From Bullera alba (taxonomy: Eukaryota; Basidiomycota; Tremellomycetes; Tremellales; Bulleraceae): a DNA stretch of 64,000 nucleotides. Under the pieces are notes generated by a model, which did no database searches, had not been told where the DNA came from, and saw only the letters and a list, made by a program, of their open reading frames with translations. This document shows, piece after piece, positions 47,828 through 61,100 of the stretch (positions are counted from its first letter, which is position 1; the number at the start of each line of letters is the position of its first letter). A program made the translations under genes and the position numbers. The stretch is taken from assembly GCA_001600095.1 (NCBI GenBank), contig BCIX01000001.1:2877198-2941197 (forward strand), given 5' to 3'.

Positions 47828-50800
47828 CTATCCTTCATCTCCATCTACTTCCCCCAACTTGTTCCCCAGGCCTGACCTGAAGTCAGAGGTGGTTGGTGGA
47901 TTGACCACATCGTCCTTCGTTCCGGTTGCAGACACCTCTAGGTCTTTGCTGGCGCTGTCGGGTAGATGATCATGTGCGAGTTGGTGAACCCTCTCAGACT
48001 CCATGCTTTCCATCGGCTCCCCAGCGAGGAGCTCGACCACCGCTGGATCAGACACCGCTGATGCTTTCTCCGCAGGTTGATCGGCTTGACCACCTTCCCC
48101 GAAAGTCCTCGAGGAGATCGAGTTGGGAATACCGCTCTCGCTGACAACACCCGGCTCGACGATTTCGTTGACATCCGTCTGAGGAACTGTTGGTATGTCG
48201 CCGTGGTGCCCTGCCTCTTCTTCGTCCACATGATCGTCAATTGATCTATGCGAGACCGACTCCATTTTCGAATGTACCCCAGCAGACGCTTTAGGCATTT
48301 CGTCTAGGTCGACTATCACTGATGGAGTGCTTTGAACGATGCCGATTTGGGCAACCTCGGCTTGCAGCTCCAGCTTGGTACTGTCGGTCGTGTCAAGCTC
48401 CTCCACACCAGCTGCGCTCTCGTCGTCTAGTTTGACCGATACCTCGGCCTCACCGTCGGCTGGCTTTTCTGCGGCGACTGAGCGAGTTTCATCGGCTGCA
48501 CCAGCGGCCGGGCTTGCAGCACCGACAGACTCTCCTATTGCCTCCGCCCAAGCATGAGCGGCCGACGTGACAGTGTCAACGACCGTAGCAACGCTGAGGC
48601 TGGGCAGTATCGGGATCGAGCTTGTTGTCTCGTCGGCCGCGGTGGGTACCTCGCTTTCCACCTCGTCTGATGTGAGATCCCGGGGACCAAAGGTGTCGTC
48701 TGCCGTGGAGTCGAGCGTCTCGTCGTTCGACGCGTATTCGGTGGTTCCAGTTGGCATGACTGGACTGGGCGCATGAGTCGATACCACTCCGACATCAGAC
48801 GCAGTGGAATGGACTGGACGAGACTCGACCGTGTCGTCTCCTCTAGGAACGGATGGTGCAGTCACTTCGAGGTTTTCAGTCGATTCGACCTCGTCGTCTG
48901 AAGCAACGACCATAATCTCGCCGGCTGGGACCTGACTCGTAGTCTCTTCTTCCGAGACTTGGACCGGCATGTCGATAGGCGATGTCCCAATAGAAGGACC
49001 TGAGGCGTGTTTGAGCTCTGCCTCTTCGTCGGAGACCTGCTCCTCCCCTGGGGTCTGTTCTACCAGACGAGGAGATGCCTCTGGCTCCATGATCGCGATA
49101 GGCTCTGGCGTAGGCTGGCCGATATCTTCTGCTGATGTAGCTGGAGCAGACTCCATTTGCGGCGCCGCCTCCGATTCCGGCTCATGCTCGACTTTCGGTG
49201 AAGAGGCGAGTGACTCCTCCGCAACAAGCTCTTCCACTTCGTCTTCCCTATCACCAGACTCCACTTCGGCCATAGAGAGCTCAAGAGGGTTGACCACCAC
49301 CGGACCAGCTATTTCCGCCATGGGCGTTGAGTAATCCTCGAATGGGGTGCTGCTCCCAGATACGGCTTGAGCGGGATCCGACTCGGCCTGGGCGATTTCC
49401 GCTTCATCACCAGTCGCTGAACGCTCAGCTATCTCGGATTGGACTGGCGGGGAGACAGCAGGTGTCGCTTGAGCTGGTACTGGCGAAGAAGATCCGGGTT
49501 GAGCAGGCTCCAGGTGTGGTGTTTCCGCCTGAGAGGGCTCGAGTGGGGCAGACGCCACTTGACTGACCTCAGCTTCGCGCTGATCAACCTCAGGTGAAGC
49601 AGGACCCGGTCGAGCAGACTGGATTGTAGGAACCGGCTCGGAAGACTCGACTCGACCGACCTCAGTCTGACTCGGCTTAGCCTCGGCGTTGTCATGACGA
49701 ACCACCTCGGGTAGAGCTGCAACGGTCGGCTGGGCATGATATTCCGCCACCTCTGGTGAATGCTGGGGCTCACGACGCTCTTCCTCCACCTGCTGTTCGA
49801 CCACTGCGTCGTGAACTGCCGATCTAGGCCCTTGATCTGGGACAGTGACCTTCGCTGCTGGAGCATCCACTTCGAGAGGCAGAACCGCGGGAGTATGCTT
49901 CTGGGAGCGGTTGAGGAGTTCCTGCAGCTCGGGCGGCAAGTCCGGCATAGTCTCACCCAGAAGTGGTGAAGGCGAGGGCGCTGACGACCGCTTGATCCTC
50001 CTTGTCGAGCGTGGCGAGGCCGACGAGACGCCGTCATGCTCCATCCCGTCTTCCTCCTCGACGTCGGATAGCACGTGATCCTCGTACTGGGATAACTCCT
50101 CCAGAACTGGAATCTCATGAGTTGATGGACCATTTGTGTGTTGTGCGCTATCGTGCTCGATGATGTTGACGGCAGTCTCACCGGAGATGTCTCGATCGTT
50201 GGAGTTGGGAGGGAAGATGGGCTTGACGGGAGTGAGGGCCAATGCGTCTGCCAGGCTCACATGTCCATCTCCGAGGTGATCATCAGAGACGACATCGTTT
50301 GAGTCTCTGCGCCCAAAAGTCGATTTGCTCGGTGATGAACCCAGAGCATCTTCCAGAGATAGGTGTACTGGAAGAGATGGCTCTTCAGGTAGAGTACTGA
50401 TCACAGCGGTCTCCCCGACGCTTTGATCCGCTGGGGTAGGCGTGATACTCCTATCGGCGACCTCAGGTAAAGTGGTAGCGATAGGCTCGTTGGTCGGAAC
50501 GACTGCCTCGCTGCTCGGTGGAGTAGATTCGTCGTGCTTCACGGTGGTCGGGTGAGTGGCGTGCCAATGTCGCCAGATCTCCTCGTCCAATTCATACCAC
50601 TTTTTGAGGCTCTTGACCGATTTCAAATCCAGATCGATCACCTTGACCTGCTCGCCAGATCCCTTTCTCATCCAAAGACCACTTTTGCTCTGTACCACCG
50701 GAATACGGACAAAGATCGAGCAGTCTTTGAAGGTCGCAGAGAGGGTGTATGCGATCATACACTCTCTCAGGGTCAACTTGCTGAAGTCGGCGCCCTCGGA

Positions 50801-53800
50801 ACAGTGCTGTACCACTTGGCGCAATTCCTCGAGAGTCGACTCGGGTGTCTGCTCCGGATCGAATACCTCCACATCGGGATTCTCTGAGTTGTAACGCGTG
50901 GCAAGGGTCGAGATATCCAGCGGGTCGAGAGTTGACTGCAACCTCTTCAGCTCTGGTAGAATAGAAGAGCTGAGCAGGATCGGGGCAATGAGTGGCCCTG
51001 TTCTTTCGCCCAGACTGCCGTCCTTCTTTGTTGTTGGGACCTTGCCAACCTGACGTTTGTCAGTTGACCATTGAAATAATAAGAAGAGAGCACTCACTTG
51101 GTCAGGCAAAACCACCTTTCCATCGACGTATACCCTCCAATTATTCTTCTTTCCCTTTGTCTCCATCCAAATACTCCATAGGTCGTCTATAGCCTTTCCA
51201 ACCCGGATCTCGTCCCCAGAAAAGAGGTCCACCGGATCGTATCCATCCGTCTCGGTCACGCTACCTGTGGCCTTGAGACGATGATGTAGCCTGTATCGAG
51301 AGATTGTAGACTTGATGGCTGCAGCTTCTGCGGGTTGTACATTTGAGTGATCAGGCAGGAAACCCCACTTTGGCTAGATCGATCCTCGGTCAGCATGCAA
51401 TGCATCTCAAGTTGAAAGGCATCCTTCGCACTCACCTTGATCTCCAAGCACAAGACCCCTTCACCTTTGATGGTGGTCGCTGCAATGGTGTCGTCCATCA
51501 CAGTGGCTACGACAAACGAGCCGATCGAATCGACTAAGGAACCACTCTTCGATATCCTCTCTTTCGGTCTGAGCTTTTCGACTTTGCCGAAGAGCGTTTT
51601 TGTCCAATCTGCCTCAAGCGTTACTGGTACCGTCGAGAGGAGGTACTCCGCGGGCAGAAGCTTAGGAAGTAGCTCCTCCTTCCAGCTTTTCGTGAGCGAT
51701 GTAGAAGACTCGTCTCGGGCCGCTTCCGTCCCCTTTCGGATCCTCAGTACTCGTCGGGTGTAGGTCGGTGACGATCCGGTATAGGCCAATATCAGGTGTG
51801 CCCCGCCTTCGGCTCGATATGCCCACTCGGAGGGTTTGGTGTCCCTCGAAGGATCCAGGCGTTCTTGGTACCCATCTGCAGCTGAGATTGGCACTTTGAC
51901 CATCTCCCCAAGCTCGGATACCGTATACTCAGTCGGAACGGTGGATAAGGCCGTCTTGGGTGTTTTAGGCTCGGCTGTCGTGCTGTCATTGTTCGAAGCG
52001 GCATTGGCCTCACCGGCGACCGTTGGCGGGTTGAGATGAATATTGGGTTTAGTCGAAGAGCTTTCCTCGAGAATGGGCAATTGATCTCCGAAATCGGCAT
52101 TCTTGGATAGTGTCCGACTGGACCCCCCAAAGAAGGAACGACGCGAGGTTTGGGTCGAGCTCGGTGACTTGAAGGATGGTGAGCGGCGGAATAGCTGGAA
52201 ATTTTGACCGGACCTGGATGTGGTAGATGCAGCAGGAGAGCTTGACCTGGGTACGTCTGATGCCGACTCTCTCGGAGAGGGAATGGCTGTGGGCTCCACT
52301 TCTGGAACATGCGATAGGGTCACCATGATATATTCTACCGGTTCGCAATCAGGCCGGGAGATAGGAGAGCGCAAGCGTGCACAGGCGAGTTTGGGCCAAT
52401 GTCTGGATGTATGCGCGTCCAGCTGGCCATCCTGGATGAAGTTAAAGAAGAGGTGGTCGACGCTGACGATATCCTCACCAGTCATCGCGTACTTCGACGA
52501 CTCCCTCCTCGAGCTATTCCTAGAAGCAGTCGATACAGGAAGTCTGAAATCAACACCGCTGGTGGGCACTCTGGGCGCCAGTCTCAATTGGGCCTCAGGA
52601 CTCCCGCCAAATCCTGTCTTCTCGAACGACGTCCATATGTCCGGCTGACCAGAGTTTGTACTGAGAACATCGTGGGACGGTCGTCTATTGACAGTTTTGG
52701 ACGAAATATCGATCACAGGACCCAACTGTGGAAGTATACTGTCCGTTCCCATGACCGGCTTCTCATGTAGCAAATTGCCGTGCGAGCGGGATCGAGGACG
52801 CTGGATCGGATCTTGCAGGGTATGCGAGAGATCGGTGGTGGACAGAATGGAGAAAGGTCGATATAGAGGACCACCTGCCGCACTATCGGAGCTCACAGAA
52901 GATGGTGATGCTGAAGATGGAGGCTCCAAAAGCGCCTCGAATCTCGAGTCAAATCGCTCTTGATAGACCCGATCGTCGTCCACGAGCATCTCTTCAATGG
53001 ACGCTGACCCCTTTGACTTCAGCCACTCGGTCCAGACACCCGTGTTGTTCGCAGGCTTCGATGATGCCGCCAGGTGCAATAGCTCTCGGGGTGTCACTGT
53101 CGGGAGCTGTCGTCCGGTGTAAACCAGCGAGATCTGGAGGACTTGACACAGGAATGAAGATGGCGGTGGACTGGAGAGCAGCGTTGGTTCCTCGCTTATG
53201 TCTCCGAAAGGATAGTCCTCAACGAGGCGCAGTAAGCGAGCGGGGAGTTGCTGCCTCGTAGCTTGATGCCTGTTGCGCACAGTCAGATAATCCCCAACAA
53301 CCAAGCTTAGCGGACTTACCTGATCCAAGCGTAGAACAGGTGCTCAGTCCTTCTGCCGTTCACCGCCCATTGATCATACAGCTCTGTCCAATCCTGCTGA
53401 TGTCTCTCTGGAATGACTTTCTCGAAGATCCACCACCCCAACAGGCGCGATATCTTGCCCCCGCTCATACCGTTCGAGTCGGATTTAGACGCCACTGCGC
53501 TCCACAGGTCGAAAACTTCTTCGAGGATCCGACCGGTCTGCACAGGTAGTCGAGAAGACAAAAGGAAGTGGTAGGCATCTACGGGGAAATTGTTGTCTCG
53601 TTCCGCTCGGAGAAAGGTGATATAGGTCGCAGAGTCGAGTATAGAGGCTGAAGTGGAATGAGTACTGTTCTCCAGCATGGAGTTGGACGACGACTGGTTG
53701 AGATGTCGCAGGAGGTACTTCAAAGCTTCACACAAAACACAGGCGTCTGTCTGATCCTGACAGAGGCTGTCGAGGTGCTGAGTCCACATTGTTGACGAAT

Positions 53801-54485
53801 TCTCGGTAGATGATGTCGGGCCTGGTGTCGTGCCATAGTGATCCACCAGCGTCTTGAACTTGGCTGACAGGTCCGGTCGAGCCGATAAGAGGATGAGAGC
53901 GATTAGAAGGTCTTGAGACTCGGCGTCTGAGGGCGAGGGTCGGACCACCATCAGGCCAGCTTGTCCCAAATCTGCCGAAAAAAGGATTAGCGGATAATCC
54001 CGGCGCTTCGATGATAGCTCACCGTTCTTGCGCAAGGCCTCGCCGAGAACCTTCCAGCCTAGTAGAAGCTGCTCCAAGCTGAATTGCTGCTTGCGCAAAA
54101 ACTCGAGCTCCTCCGCGTTGAGCTTCGGAGGCTTCCCTACATCTCTCAGTCCGAGTGTGTCCCCGTCCGCCGCGAGTCCATCTACGCTCTGAAGTTCCCA
54201 TCCCAGAGCAAGCTTTGGTACCTGCTCTTCCTCCCTAGACGGCTTTGCTGAGACCCGTCTCGTGTTACTCCTTCTTCTGGTCAACTCGGTGCTCGCCCTT
54301 CGAGCTGCGAGGTCGTACGGCTTGCTTGATGAGCGAGAGCGGAGTGAGAGGAATCTCGTGTGTTTGTCCTTTGGTGTTGGCGAAGGGCCTCTCTGTACGC
54401 CAGCGGCCTCTTTGCTCCCTTCGCGAGAAGGCGAGGTGGCGCGCTTGGCCTTCTTCCTCCCGAAGAGGGAGAGTAAGGACACCAT
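47828..54485 (-). CDS. IPK1: fusion protein: Msb1/Mug8 domain + inositol-pentakisphosphate 2-kinase (IPK1) + long acidic tail
   Basis: One gene of about 2,150 residues. ATG at 54483-54485 ('MVSLLSLFGRKKAKRAT'), stop at 47828-47830. Residues ~1-700 look like an Msb1/Mug8 domain, linked to Rho-type polarity and wall signalling: 'WIFEKVIPERHQQDWTELYD', 'NGRRTEHLFYAWIR', 'HQATRQQLPARLLRLVEDYP', then 'VDHLFFNFIQDGQLDAHTSR'. Residues ~850-1250 are a full IPK1, which makes phytate (IP6) from IP5: 'EWAYRAEGGAHLILAYTG' (Gly loop), 'RRVLRIRKG', 'CLEIKPKWGFLPDHS' across an intron at about 51374-51436, 'PVDLFSGDE' and 'VKVIDLDLKSVKSLKKWYEL' with the metal-binding DLDLK. Residues ~1250-2150 are Glu/Pro/Ala/Ser-rich. 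The Msb1 end and the IPK1 start share one uninterrupted exon (about 53280 to 51437), so this is not two genes read together. Introns at 53972-54022 and 51050-51097 are multiples of three and stop-free. Confidence 0.85.
51050..51097 (-). other. 48-base stop-free intron in the IPK1 part
   Basis: Donor 'gtgagtg' after 'VVLPDQ', acceptor 'cgtcag' before 'VGKVPTTKKDG'. A multiple of three with an open frame; retention would insert 16 residues in the kinase domain. Confidence 0.7.
53972..54022 (-). other. 51-base stop-free intron in the Msb1 part
   Basis: Donor 'gtgagc' and acceptor 'cggcag' on the minus strand. The length is a multiple of three and the frame stays open, so retention would add 17 residues without a shift. 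Confidence 0.7.
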
Positions 54486-55144
54486 GCAGAGCGAGTCTTG
54501 CGCGGACTGACAGTTGAAGGTGCAGTTTCAAGTGGGCATACCAAGTCGGACACAATCTCAGCTTTTCAGCTCTCAGAATCTTGAGCACCGCTACTAGAGG
54601 TGGTATGAGCGGGTTGAACGACGTGTACCAATTGCGGGATCACCAACGCCTCGCCTCGCCTTGGTGGCTCCCGTCCTGAGCCTCGCTCTGACCATGCTGA
54701 AACTCGGACCGAGCGCTAGCTTCAAGCTTACCCCTTGAAACACCGCCCAAGGACACCACGTGACAACGGTGGCGCGTTGACTCAGTCGGATATCAGTCAA
54801 TGTCCGCTCGATGGCACGTGGCCCGCGAACGTGAGCAGCAGAAGATGCAGCAGAGTGCTGGCCTTTACTGGTCTCTATATGATCATGCATGGCGAGCATG
54901 CTGTTGAGGGGCCATGAATGCTCGATCAGACGCCGAGCATTGCGCTTTGAGAGCTGTGTCATGACTTGTATTCTGCGTGTTGTGCGATATCATGTATCTA
55001 CCTTCTGCATGATCACACCGTCACAACAAATAGATTTCGCTGGTTGCTTTCCACAATCATGAGGCTGAATTAGGCATTCCCGAATGTTGCGCAACACGCG
55101 CATGAAATAGGATCGAGTCCGCCCAGTCCCCATCGCACACCGCC
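54486..55144. promoter_or_regulatory. divergent promoter, Msb1-IPK1 and NTE1, with two CACGTG boxes
   Basis: The 659 bases between two divergent start codons. 'ccacgtgac' (core 54757-54762) and 'gcacgtggc' (core 54815-54820) are two E-boxes 58 bases apart. CACGTG is bound by bHLH factors such as Cbf1 and Pho4; the second matches the stronger Pho4-type GCACGTGG form. The palindromic 'atgatcatgcat' near 54879 is a further possible site. CACGTG also occurs elsewhere in the window, so the pairing is suggestive only. Confidence 0.45.
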
Positions 55145-58100
55145 ATGGAGCCTATACCGACCAACGGCAACCCACTGGTCGCACTGGCGGTCGCGGTGAT
55201 CAAGGCCATTCTCTATGTTTTGGACAGTATCCGGTCATTGGCGACATGGTTGACCATCACGCTTCCAGGGTATGTTCACGAGTGCTCGTTCCGCATGAGG
55301 GGGGCACATGTCTACCTGGAGGCGTCCCGGCTGAAATTGTGCTTAGCTACCTAGTCCGCATGCTGCAATACTCGTTCACCATCTCGCTCGGATTCCCAGT
55401 ACTGCTGAGCATATTCGTCGGTGCCCTCGTCGCGGCCACCTTTGTCATTCGGTACAACTATCTCGCACGCTACACCCAGCTGAAAGAGCCAGCTCTACCG
55501 CCGCCCTCACCCCGTACACTTACCAACGAGCTACTACCTCTAGCCGCCGTCGGCCTGAACGATGGGAGAACCAGGGCATCTCCCTTCCACAATTACTTGG
55601 ACGACTTCTTGGCTGCGATCAGGATCTTTGGATACCTCGAGAAGCCAGTCTTCCACGAGCTTAGTCGGCATCTGCAGACAAGGAGGCTTGCCGCTGGGGA
55701 GACGCTGGAAATCGGAAATGGCGACTTCTGGTGTGTAGTCGAGGGAAAGGTCCAAGTGGTACGTTTCATCTTCCGGTGGGTTTCGCATGGACCAACATGC
55801 TAATCATATGGTAGTTCGCTCCATCCGATGATGGCGAACCCTCTAAGAAAGCTGGCGACTCCGCTCCGAACAACTCTTTCAATGGATACCACCTACTCAA
55901 CGAAGTGTCTACCGGTGGAACCCTTTCATCCCTCTTCTCCATCCTGTCCCTCTTCACAGAAGATATCAAGCTGTCCTGGACACCTCCTCCCGAGGCAGAA
56001 AGTGATCAAGAGGAGGAGGACAGTACGTCAGACGCAGGAGAGACTACCTTCGGTGGAGAGAGCAGAGATACGAGTTCGAAGAGGAGATCGAGGGCGAATT
56101 CAGACGTCAGCTTCATGGGCGAAGAAACCATGAGCAAAAAAGCTTTCGACGCATCGTCCCCGCCAACGGTCAAGAAGCGATCCTCTTCGGCCACTGTCGC
56201 CGGTGTCGACCATCCACCTCAGCTGGATCCGCAGCTCGCCACGCCGTCAAGCAACGCCACTTCGCTACCAGGAAGTAGATCATCATCACCTGACAACAGC
56301 CCTTCAGTGGAGAAGGACTTTTCGCCGCCCGCCTCGAGCCGTCCTCGGTTGTCGCGGAATGACACTGAGAACACTCAAGCGCCTTCATCGCCTGGCGACA
56401 GGAAAGCGAGGCCAGACAAGGCGAAGAGTAAGAAGACTAGTGCGGCAGGTCTACAAGGCACCATCGCTAGGGCGACGGTGGACACTACTCTAGCTGTCAT
56501 CCCAGCCGAAGCCTTCCGCAAACTGACCAGGAAATACCCCAAGGCTAGTGGCACAGTCGTTCAGGTGGTACTTGAACGATTCAGTCGAGTCACCTTTATG
56601 ACAGGTACGATTTGTTCGGCTCTTCTTGGTTAAGGTAATAGGTGCTGATACTTGCATAGCACACAAGTATCTCGGCTTAACGAAAGAGATTCTCAAGTCC
56701 GAATCTTCCTTGAACGACCTTGTCTCGCATCCTCTGCCGCGGGAGTTCTACACATCGGGCGGTATGCAAGCTCTAAGGGCCAGGTTTCAGCCTGATCTCG
56801 ACCCCACTGGTCGACGGCACTCAAAATCGGGACCTTCATCACCGCTACCTAGAGTCATGAGCAGAGACTACTTCAATTACATCCCCGCCAGTCCGACTGT
56901 AAGAGCACCGTCCCTGCCCTCTTTCACTCCCAAAAAGCCTGGTACACCAGCCGCTGGACTGCCGCGCCCCCTCGAGCCACTTAGCGAAGCATCACCAGAA
57001 GTTCCCGAAGAAGCCGAGGCCGCCATACTACCTGGCATTGGTCCGATGACGTCCAAGCAGCTCTCACCTGAGATAGCAGCTCGCCATCAGCCCCAGTACA
57101 TACGACGAGCATCTGCCATGCGCAAACAAGTCGGCGCGGGTGATCTAGCTATGAGCAATGTCACCATTCCGGACGGCGATGGTGCTTATTATCGACCTTC
57201 TGCTCGGACACCGGGACTGCCTCGCATGGACACGTGGAGAGGAGGAGCAAGGTTTCCTGGATCGACTTACGACCTCAACGAGCATGACGGTGTTGCATTC
57301 GTCCCGTCGCCTACCGAGATGGAGAGCGAGTCAATCGAGTTGAGGGACGCCGTCTTGATCTGTATTGCCAAATCCATTGGATTGGCTCAACCCGCCGAAG
57401 GAACGATATTCGACTCGCATGGTCGTTCATCAGCTGCCCCTTCCGCCTCCGGACTGTCCACACCCAATTCTCCCATGTTCCCGCCAATGTCCAATAAGCG
57501 CTCCTCGTCCATAACTCCATTCGGAAATGTCCTGGACATGATGAACGCCTCGGCGGATAGCGACAATCTGGTCGGCGGAATGCTGAGAGAAGCAGTCACT
57601 TCGCAAGGTGATGACGTGGAGATGAGCAGTGTCTCAGCAAGTGTTCAAGATAGCTTTATGGGCGGCAGCGCCGGTGAAGTCAACAAGACTGTCCTCAAGG
57701 ATTTGGAGGGTAATGTTGAGATCGTCTTCTTCAAGCAGGGCAGTACGTTGGTCAAAGAGGGTGAAAAGAGCCCAGGGATATACTACGTGATAGATGGTTT
57801 CCTCGAGGTGAGTAGCGCGCACCATGTAAACAGCCGTAAGAGCGCAATTGGCGAGTGGCATGGAGCTGACTTGGCCTGCTCAGGTCACATTGCCGGTCAA
57901 AGGCTCCTCGGCCAACATACCGGCATCCTCATTTGTGAACCTACCTCCGGGTCCGATGGGAGGTGCAGCCAATAGACCCTTCAGCGCGGGTCTTGGGATG
58001 GGTGCAACGGCCGATCCGGCCAAACACTCGTTGCCATCTTGTCTCGCCCACGATGAGCATCTCTACAACGTCAAGGTGAGTCAGGTGAAGGCACCGGCGT

Positions 58101-61100
58101 GGCAACGGCCATGCTGACACTGTGCGCTCCACCAGCCCGGCGGAATAGCCGGATACCTAGCTTCGCTATGTGGCACCGAGTCCTACGTCAACATCACGTG
58201 CGTACAGCTGCGCGAAGCCTGAACCACCGGGGCAGACGACTGACTGCCTTTCAGAGCCAAGACAGACTGTTTCGTCGGTTTCCTGCCCCATAAGGCTCTG
58301 GAGAAGATCCTTGAGAGAAGGCCTATAGTCTTGTTAACTCTGTCGAAAAGGCTGATATCCCTGTTGTCCCCGCTGGGTGAGCGATTCTGAGCGCATCGAT
58401 GTTTCACACTGACATCGGCATAAGTGCTGCACATCGATGCTGCATTGGACTGGATGCAACTCTCAGGTGGTCAGGTGAGTTGACGCATCGATGGGAATGA
58501 TTAAGTACCAGCTCTGACACTTATCAGGTCTTGGTAGGTCAAATTGACTGACCGATACAGTGTAAAGCTTGATCACTAAGCAATGCTATAGTACGAGAAA
58601 GGCGACAGATCATCCGACTTCTATATCGTGATCAGTGAGTGCCTTCAAAGCTGACACCATGGCCTGCTAATATCTTGCAGATGGTCGTTTGCGCTCGTTG
58701 TCTGAGAAAGGGGAGTCGGTTGAAGTGCTCCGAGAATACGGCCAGAACGACTCTATCGGCGAACTGGACGTGATCACCTCTGTTGCTCGCTCGGATACTG
58801 TCCACGCCATCCGAGACTCGGAGCTGGTCAGGATACCCGCAGCGCTATTCGATGCTGTCAGCGCAAAGCACCCCAATACCACAGTCCAGTTCATGCGACT
58901 TATCGCTGGTCGTGTGAGGCGTGTCTTGGGGGAGAGAAGTCTGGGTACCGGAGGCCAGAGTGGAAACTCGGCTCCAGATGTCAACCTCAGTGAGTCCTCG
59001 CTCCTCAGTCGGGACCGCTTGTGGTTCTAATATAAATTGCAGAGACGGTTTGTATACTGGGTACCAATAGGAATGTCCCGGTGGCGCACTTTGCTGGCAA
59101 GCTCAAAACCTCACTCGAGGAATTGGGCGCCACGACTTCCTACCTCGACCAAGGCACCGTCATCAGGCATCTGGGCAGACATGCATTCGCCAGAATCGGG
59201 TAAGGATATCGTTCGACATGGAGTCTGTACTGACCCTTTCGGCTTCAGCAAATTGAAGGTTGCGGGATGGTTGGCTGATCAGGAGGTGGGTTGCCCGCTA
59301 AAGACCACTATCTGTGGCTCGCTGACCTCTTGGCCCAGCAACACTACCGCACTGTGCTGTATGTTGCGGACACGCCAGCTTCCAGTCAATGGACATTGAC
59401 GTGTATCCGTCAGGTAGGTCCGATCGACAAACAGTCTGACAAATACTTACGCTTGACGGCCTAGGCTGATCTGGTATTGGTACTCGGTAAGCTAGCCGAG
59501 CTTTCGATGATATTGGGTCACTGACATCTCGATGTAGGTATGGGAGACGACCCTGCCATTGGCGAATATGGTGAGTGCTATGATGGTCGGACTCTTCCAT
59601 TGAGAAGCGCTGACTACCCTCGCTTTACAGAGAAACTTCTTTTGGCAACAAAGACCACGGCGAGGAAAGAGCTCATTCTGTTGCACGACGAGAGAACGGT
59701 TGCTCCTGGGTCTACTCGTCCGTGGCTCAAGGTCAGTCCGATTCCTGACATACAATGACGACACGCGGATTGACATATCGCAGAACCGCCCATGGCTACA
59801 CGCGCATCATCACGTCGAGCTGCCCGGTGTTGTAACCCCCCACAAGACCACTCCCACCGTACACGACCCAGCGGCCATCGCAGCGTTCAAGCACCTTAGG
59901 GAGCAAGTCGGTACCCGGATCAAGAAGTACCGAGGTCTGCGACCAATTCGTGCACGCCGACCAGCACACATGAACGACTTTGCCCGTATCGCCAGAAGGT
60001 TGTGCGACAAGCAAATCGGACTGGTACTTGGTGGTGGCGGTGGTAGAGGTATCGCCCATATTGGTTTCCTACAAGCCCTTGAGGAGATGGGTATCCCCGT
60101 CGATGCCATCAGCGGTTGCTCCATCGGAGCATTCGTTGGAGGTCTTTATTGCAAAGAGGCGGATCTTCTAGAGTGCACGGGGCGCACAAAGCAATTTGCC
60201 GGGAGAATGAGTAGTATGATAAGGATACTGAGTGACGTGACATATCCCTTTGTTGCGTACACCACGGGGCATGAGTTCAGTGAGTGACCAGTGGAGCGAT
60301 AGTGGTGAATAGTAGACTGACTTGACAAATAGATAGAGGAATATGTGAGTTTCCATGGCCAGGCAGTCTCTGTCGTTGATCTGACACCGCATCACAGACA
60401 AAGCATTTTACAATACACATATAGAAGGTACTTTGACCCCCTATCTTCATCATTGACACTGCTTACTCGTGTGCTCAGACTGCTGGATCCCGTTCTTCTG
60501 CAATTCCACCAATATCACCCATTCACGCATGGAGGTCCATCGATCAGGTTACGCATGGTAGGCAGATCGCTCTCCTGGGATGCTTGTCTTGCTGATGGTC
60601 TCTGCAGGCGGTATGTGCGCGCCTCAATGACGCTAGCAGGTCTCCTTCCGCCCTTGTCCGACAACGGAAATCGTGAGTTGATTTTGAAATGGGTTCAATA
60701 GGTCAGACTGGCGGGGACGTTGACACACCTCTCTGTGCAGTCTTGGTCGATGGAGGATATATCGACAATACGCCGATTGAACCTCTGCGGACCAGCGGTA
60801 TTCGCGATATCATGGTCATTGATGTCGGCTCTCTTGACGATACCTCTCCCCGCAACTACGGCGACTCTGTTTCTGGATGGTGGATCCTTCTTAACAAGTG
60901 GGTTTACTCGGGATGACCGAAGTTCAGGTGTGACACGTGCTGATATATCTGAATCCAGGTTCAACCCCTTCTACGAGCGTAACGTGCTGTCTATGACGGA
61001 GATCTCGGGTCGACTGGCATAGTGAGTTCCTCTCGTACACCATCGCACCATATCCACTGACCGTTTGGGTAGTGTTTCGAGCGTGAAGACCTTGGAAGAC

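Follow-up and report, generated by a model that had tools for sequence, protein, structure and literature searches.

Whether an enzyme that makes inositol hexakisphosphate (IP6) can be built into the same polypeptide as a cell polarity module is the question raised by a gene of the tremellalean yeast Bullera alba. The gene lies in a 64,000-nucleotide stretch of contig BCIX01000001.1 (assembly GCA_001600095.1, positions 2,877,198 to 2,941,197), referred to below as the window. A first reading of the sequence, here called the original prediction, had proposed that one exon holds both the end of an Msb1/Mug8 region and the start of an inositol-pentakisphosphate 2-kinase (IPK1), in one frame and with no stop between them. 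That exon contains no stop in the coding frame, and the evidence from the gene and its relatives very strongly indicates a real, single fused protein.

The spliced model of the fused gene occupies 54485-47828 on the minus strand and joins five exons into a protein of 2148 residues:

47828..54485, minus strand: complete coding region (ATG at 54485, stop ends at 47828)
54023..54485, minus strand: exon 1, followed by intron 1 (54022-53972, 51 bases, GT..AG)
53320..53971, minus strand: exon 2, followed by intron 2 (53319-53270, 50 bases, GT..AG)
51436..53269, minus strand: exon 3, 1834 bases, carrying in one frame everything from the end of the PF08101 match, through a second conserved block and the linker, to the kinase start
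51098..51373, minus strand: exon 4, flanked by intron 3 (51435-51374) and intron 4 (51097-51050)
47828..51049, minus strand: exon 5, with the remaining kinase, the acidic tail and the stop

All four introns removed are GT..AG and 48-62 bases long. Exon 3 is the joining exon. Its coding frame has 0 stops, against 12-23 in each of the other five frames, and 611 open codons would arise by chance with a probability of about 5e-6, a rough value that is based on the observed stop-triplet frequency and ignores codon structure. The single frame carries VDHLFFNFIQDGQLDAHTSR from 52461, the start of the kinase from 51828 and EIK from 51444; the motif EIKPKWGF is divided by intron 3 (EIK/PKWGF). The exon is the one originally named, with bounds of 53269-51436 in place of the approximate 53280-51437. 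The N-terminus (MVSLLSLF..KKAK) agrees with the starts of eight of ten aligned fused relatives, and the remaining two begin later.

The following parts can be distinguished within the protein:

53206..53903, minus strand: Msb1/Mug8 (RhoGAP-like) domain, residues 178-393 (PF08101, 74.6 bits), split by intron 2
52300..52467, minus strand: second conserved block of the Msb1-like half, residues 640-695 (VDHLFFNFIQDGQLD ... EYIMVTL), alpha/beta in the predicted model of relative P0014
51880..51933, minus strand: linker motif TEYTVSELGEMVKVPISA, residues 818-835, immediately N-terminal of the kinase, from the alignment of fused proteins
50579..51819, minus strand: inositol-pentakisphosphate 2-kinase domain, residues 856-1232 (PF06090, complete), including introns 3 and 4
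47831..50542, minus strand: acidic low-complexity tail, residues 1245-2148, 20% D+E, containing RSSAPSPSP

A Pfam search of the spliced protein places both domains well over their cut-offs. PF06090 (Ins_P5_2-kin) scores 255.7 bits (cut-off 22.7) over profile positions 1-375 of 375, so the kinase is complete, as had been proposed. PF08101 (Msb1-Mug8_dom) scores 74.6 bits (cut-off 23.6), which upholds the assignment of the N-terminal part to this family, for the N-terminal half of the profile (positions 25-224 of 423). The stretch 'VDHLFFNF...', originally read as part of the Msb1/Mug8 region, falls outside the match and belongs to the second block conserved in fused proteins. Nothing matches the C-terminal half of the profile, either in the window protein (none past 224) or in four scanned domain-bearing fused relatives (none past 232), and the N-terminal part is for this reason to be called Msb1-type, not Msb1.

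The predicted model of P0014 was matched to a RhoGAP-like fold by a second structural comparison (VIA); Foldseek by itself gave no RhoGAP among the best 50 of 273 matches to a 900-residue model. Catalytic RhoGAP domains are marked by an arginine finger in a G-I-F-R-x-S-G loop. Pfam RhoGAP matches in the fused proteins start at profile position 47, and the arginine-finger loop lies outside the alignment; the corresponding loop, identified by eye, reads GIML-PRR or GLMVVRP. The N-terminal part looks RhoGAP-like in the model and is probably non-catalytic.

A further, strongly diverged Msb1/Mug8-type gene is found elsewhere in the same genome (G000:C6:1211252-1211812; L004, L005), with 34.9 bits against the cut-off of 23.6. 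No IPK1 match occurs on its contig, and this gene probably encodes the yeast's ordinary Msb1. A hidden Markov model (HMM) of the RhoGAP-like core (121-400 of the fused alignment) matched one open reading frame of the locus at 3e-5; HMMs of 400-480, 372-700, 630-700 and 800-850 reached best E values of 0.075, 0.04, 0.93 and 0.63. A hand-joined N-terminal piece of the locus matched no Pfam family. Because matches outside the core are weak, the second block would seem either to be confined to the fused family or to have diverged beyond detection in this gene.

The sequence between the domains is itself conserved. With ten fused relatives aligned to the window protein, inter-domain blocks stand out at WDDFxKxGFGDSP, around FVEDGQLD, at RRSFFG and at TEYTxxEMGEMVKIP. 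The last of these, the linker motif, directly precedes the kinase and is weaker in P0006 and P0008. A pattern written once the alignment had been seen was found in 17 of 136 retrieved proteins in its strict form and in 19 in a looser one. Among the 136, its carriers are confined to this lineage: the fused proteins, the metagenomic pieces P0004 and P0065, and P0031 of Tremella mesenterica. No sign of a gene boundary is apparent between the domains, and in relatives the intervening stretch is occupied by the conserved blocks and the linker motif. In the P0014 model most linker residues have a pLDDT (predicted local distance difference test) under 50, and no confident placement of the motif on the kinase was obtained. 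The tail varies from 256 to 1220 residues across the 11 fused proteins measured, nine of which contain an (A/G)PSPS motif (a pattern written after the sequences had been seen), and is absent from four stand-alone Cryptococcus kinases read.

The kinase itself appears intact. The originally quoted motifs EIKPKWGF, PVDLFSGDE and DLDLK are all present, as are KNN, FKDCS and the longer IDLDLK. In a comparison of 31 kinases, with four mostly-gap columns set aside, the window kinase never departs from the majority residue where at least 93% of them agree. Its top solved match is Cryptococcus neoformans IPK1 (5xu6, 315 bits), in an alignment that spans nearly the whole chain 5xu6_A. A structural model of a relative, P0031 from Tremella, likewise matched 5xu6, at E 1.8e-31. 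With every strongly conserved residue kept, the kinase is highly likely to be active, in agreement with the original prediction. It is the sole IPK1 found in the 19.4-Mb genome (two exon matches, one gene). Because the genome also has PF03770 genes at two loci and a single PPIP5K gene, the earlier and later kinases of the inositol phosphate route also appear to be present. The C. neoformans homologue was shown genetically to be the major kinase of inositol pentakisphosphate (IP5), its deletion abolishing IP6 and diphosphoinositol pentakisphosphate (PP-IP5) (PMC4817067). We strongly infer that the window kinase turns IP5 into IP6, supplying the cell's IP6 to the other inositol phosphate kinases.

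Is the arrangement peculiar to this genome? Three protein searches were made, each of which scored only about 8000 candidates sharing most words with the query and 0.55-1.75 times its length. Region 1-1235 of the window protein retrieved two proteins, both two-domain, with 32-34% identity over 86-100% of the region. The kinase alone (searched against proteins of about 820-2610 residues) retrieved 18, of which 12 carry PF08101 and PF06090: nine named strains and three metagenomic sequences. The named strains are Cryptococcus sp. DSM 104549 (C. jaspeensis), C. depauperatus, Tremellales sp. Uapishka_1 and six Kwoniella (K. shandongensis, K. heveanensis, K. shivajii, K. dendrophila, Kwoniella sp. 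DSM 27419 and Kwoniella sp. B9012), with kinase identities of 40-44%. Two of these (P0005, K. shandongensis CI109_103047; P0001, C. jaspeensis IAT38_005167) illustrate the likeness, sharing domains, order, second block, linker motif and tail; such proteins are automatically named inositol-pentakisphosphate 2-kinase or hypothetical. The other six of the 18 are five metagenomic pieces with PF06090 only, one of which (P0004) begins within the Msb1-like half, and a zinc-finger model from Phenoliferia.

A profile search with the kinase and Msb1-like pieces gave 367 proteins. The best 120 comprise six two-domain proteins, all metagenomic and two of them already among the kinase-only matches, and 114 with PF06090 but without PF08101. 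Metagenomic sequences, recognised as fused by the presence of both domains, thus total seven; P0002 and P0014 are 94% identical, so these are not seven species. Six shorter ones (860-985 residues) contain the Msb1-like core through KNNLR and then end in sequence that does not match the kinase, which, judging from the proteins, we take to mean that an otherwise unspliced frame has run on into an intron. The survey of relatives therefore returns the same domain order in nine named Tremellales strains and seven metagenomic sequences. Because the whole arrangement recurs in distant relatives, chance is excluded.

The expectation that IPK1 normally stands alone is supported. It holds, among the best 120 of 367, for the Agaricomycetes and Microbotryomycetes listed, whose IPK1 is annotated without PF08101. 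It holds also for C. neoformans (clusters P0021 and P0022), C. gattii, C. amylolentus and Cryptococcus sp. DSM 104548 (C. maquisensis, clade C), which have a stand-alone IPK1 of 408-419 residues. No PF08101-only protein that might be the detached Msb1 half of C. neoformans occurs among the same 120 matches. One of the listed proteins from Agaricomycetes and Microbotryomycetes (P0119) combines IPK1 with acyl-CoA-dehydrogenase domains rather than PF08101.

What might such a protein do? The best explanation, favoured with moderate confidence as a whole, is an enzyme whose IP6 (phytate) synthesis is tethered through a fused module that binds Cdc42/Rho1. The original prediction was supported in its reading of the gene; its suggestion that the link places phytate synthesis at polarity sites, or couples it to wall signalling, is a conjecture. 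(i) A single protein would comprise the Msb1/Mug8-type RhoGAP-like module, the second block, a flexible linker with its short motif, the complete kinase and the acidic tail. (ii) GTP-loaded Cdc42 and/or Rho1 would dock on the RhoGAP-like module, which would itself be non-catalytic. (iii) Docking would hold or recruit the IP6-making enzyme to growing sites of the cell surface. (iv) The flexible linker and acidic tail would allow the kinase to act there. (v) Local production followed by diffusion, or a shuttling enzyme, would be expected rather than strictly local IP6, because the whole cell must depend on the product of the sole IPK1 found. Beyond a RhoGAP-like domain joined to an active kinase, every step is something we infer, as is the activity itself, and the Rho-GTPase tether is as easily doubted as credited.

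The alternative that fares best accepts a fused, co-translated protein and gives the link no localizing or regulatory meaning: IPK1 would act as a soluble enzyme like any other, the Msb1-like part would have a separate role, and the join would be harmless or would serve co-expression. The stand-alone IPK1 of C. neoformans, C. gattii, C. amylolentus and C. maquisensis suggests that the link can be lost, and the genome has another Msb1-type gene. The link has nevertheless been kept in distant Tremellales (32-34% identity in the joined region, 40-44% in the kinase) together with conserved linker and tail blocks, which suggests selection on the joined protein. This alternative is judged rather unlikely.

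Somewhat less probable is a gene with several products, in which an internal promoter, an internal start (for example, the methionine in GEMVKVP) or proteolysis of the linker would also release free kinase. The mostly low pLDDT of the linker in the P0014 model would suit cleavage, and two database models start within the apparent linker: P0031 of T. mesenterica starts 13 residues before TEYT, and the first residues of P0030 from Kockovaella (MVKV) are the end of the linker motif. Both entries are, however, labelled partial, and the simpler reading is that they are truncated models of fused genes.

Such truncations lend some colour to a further proposal, that all Tremellales have the fused gene and that what look like stand-alone kinases in C. 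neoformans and its relatives are likewise truncated gene models. The C. neoformans gene CnIPK1 (CNAG_01294) is reported to have 3245 nucleotides for a protein of 415 residues (PMC4817067), which leaves part of its length unaccounted for. Against this, in four Cryptococcus species the protein opens a little ahead of the kinase and runs only 2 to about 24 residues beyond it, the tail also being gone; none of the four has the linker motif; and the solved C. neoformans chain 5xu6, at 417 residues, matches the short size. The proposal is considered improbable. Two separate neighbouring genes misread as one, as a gap of about 460 residues with much low-complexity sequence might suggest, are hardly credible and were rejected in view of the unbroken frame in a single exon, the conserved blocks across the gap, the joined annotations of nine named strains and the seven metagenomic predictions that also span both domains. 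A local assembly or gene-model accident was rejected as well, the same architecture being present in the nine named strains.

With the fused protein retained as the preferred reading, its history can be approached from the kinase. The tree contained 31 rows: 11 fused (including the window), four stand-alone Cryptococcus, five partial sequences or pieces and 11 outgroups chosen from many; P0022, the second C. neoformans cluster, and metagenomic rows without the kinase C-terminus were left out. Tremellales kinases form a single group (100/100), and the closest rows to the window kinase are metagenomic P0004 and Papiliotrema laurentii. The Tremella branch is very long (1.56). Because the stand-alone Cryptococcus kinases nest among fused ones, the fusion is probably ancestral, with moderate support: it would have arisen in early Tremellales and later been split once or twice in Cryptococcus. 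Topology tests (approximately unbiased test, p-AU) bear on this. A tree in which the stand-alone kinases branch before the fusion, with fused and partial rows held together, was moderately rejected (p-AU 0.029), the grouping having been named once the first tree had been seen. A single splitting, with the four stand-alone rows held together, was not rejected (p-AU 0.168). Holding together only the 11 confirmed fused rows gave 3e-6, a value not relied upon because probably truncated partial rows count as unfused there.

One observation weighs against a simple history of this kind. C. depauperatus, which is fused, adjoins C. neoformans and C. gattii (96/91), and its position demands that the gene was split twice, or else once if that branch is misplaced. 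Low concordance is reported for the node uniting Cryptococcus clades A, B and C in a paper on these species. The fusion does not appear to be established for every Tremellales genus: the models of Papiliotrema (P0023, 388 residues) and Naematelia (P0028, 413 residues), both labelled partial, do not contain the linker motif.

At the intron 3 site (EIK/PKWGF), both P0004 and the Phenoliferia sp. Uapishka_3 protein P0016 have extra and apparently unspliced sequence, so this intron may be older than the fusion. P0016 likewise places IPK1 inside a longer predicted protein; its kinase, however, is N-terminal, its partner is a C2H2 zinc-finger protein and its entry is labelled partial, and it may represent two genes merged in a gene model.

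The divergent upstream neighbour of the fused gene occupies 55106-60287 of the window on the plus strand, with frames that include GGGGGRG..GCSIG at 59604-60287. We take this patatin-type motif to indicate an NTE1-type lysophospholipase. An NTE1-like neighbour could be a synteny anchor for IPK1 across species.

The two halves have separate counterparts in known systems. C. neoformans Ipk1 (CNAG_01294, 5xu6) belongs to the same kinase family and is the closest solved structure, at 315 bits, but it is annotated as a kinase alone, of 415 residues, without the Msb1-like half, the linker motif or the acidic tail. The large remainder of its 3245 nucleotides, as given in part of PMC4817067, could hold remnants of the fusion. 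Saccharomyces cerevisiae Msb1 shares the PF08101 family name and, by description, a RhoGAP-like N-terminal region; in the passages concerned it is a polarity protein described without a kinase (PMC3681933). In the window protein the profile match ends at position 224 of 423. The same passages report that Msb1 binds Cdc42 and Rho1 and localises to sites of polarized growth; docking of the GTP-loaded GTPases by its RhoGAP-like region is the speculation of those authors.

Within the open-licence PMC literature, no paper tying Msb1 or RhoGAP to IPK1 was found, nor any on the neighbouring locus tags. By word search, fusion, fused and additional domain do not occur in the main text of a eukaryote-wide survey of inositol phosphate kinases (PMC8024741), and Msb1, IPK1, inositol and gene fusion do not occur in the searched text of PMC11185503; passages of a study of white-rot IPK1 contain no Msb1 (PMC12421882). 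The sequences are already in databases, some automatically named IPK1, and are not new. The conserved architecture, with its apparent loss in the C. neoformans and C. amylolentus clades, appears to be undescribed within the literature searched.

At its most far-reaching, the fusion would mean that, in Tremellales that keep it, binding of GTP-loaded Cdc42 or Rho1 places, and perhaps gates, the only IP5 2-kinase at growth sites, making the supply of IP6 and inositol heptakisphosphate (IP7) dependent on polarity, and that Cryptococcus lineages including human pathogens have been uncoupled from this control; such an outcome is doubtful. The union of the sole IP6-making kinase found in the genome with a polarity-type module makes the site of IP6 synthesis directly testable. 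The apparent splitting in the C. neoformans and C. amylolentus clades offers a natural comparison of fused and unfused enzymes. Inositol polyphosphate kinases of C. neoformans affect phosphate response, wall integrity and virulence, according to passages of PMC6660261 and PMC7587432, and work on the Ipk1 of this species may not reflect the ancestral state of the order.

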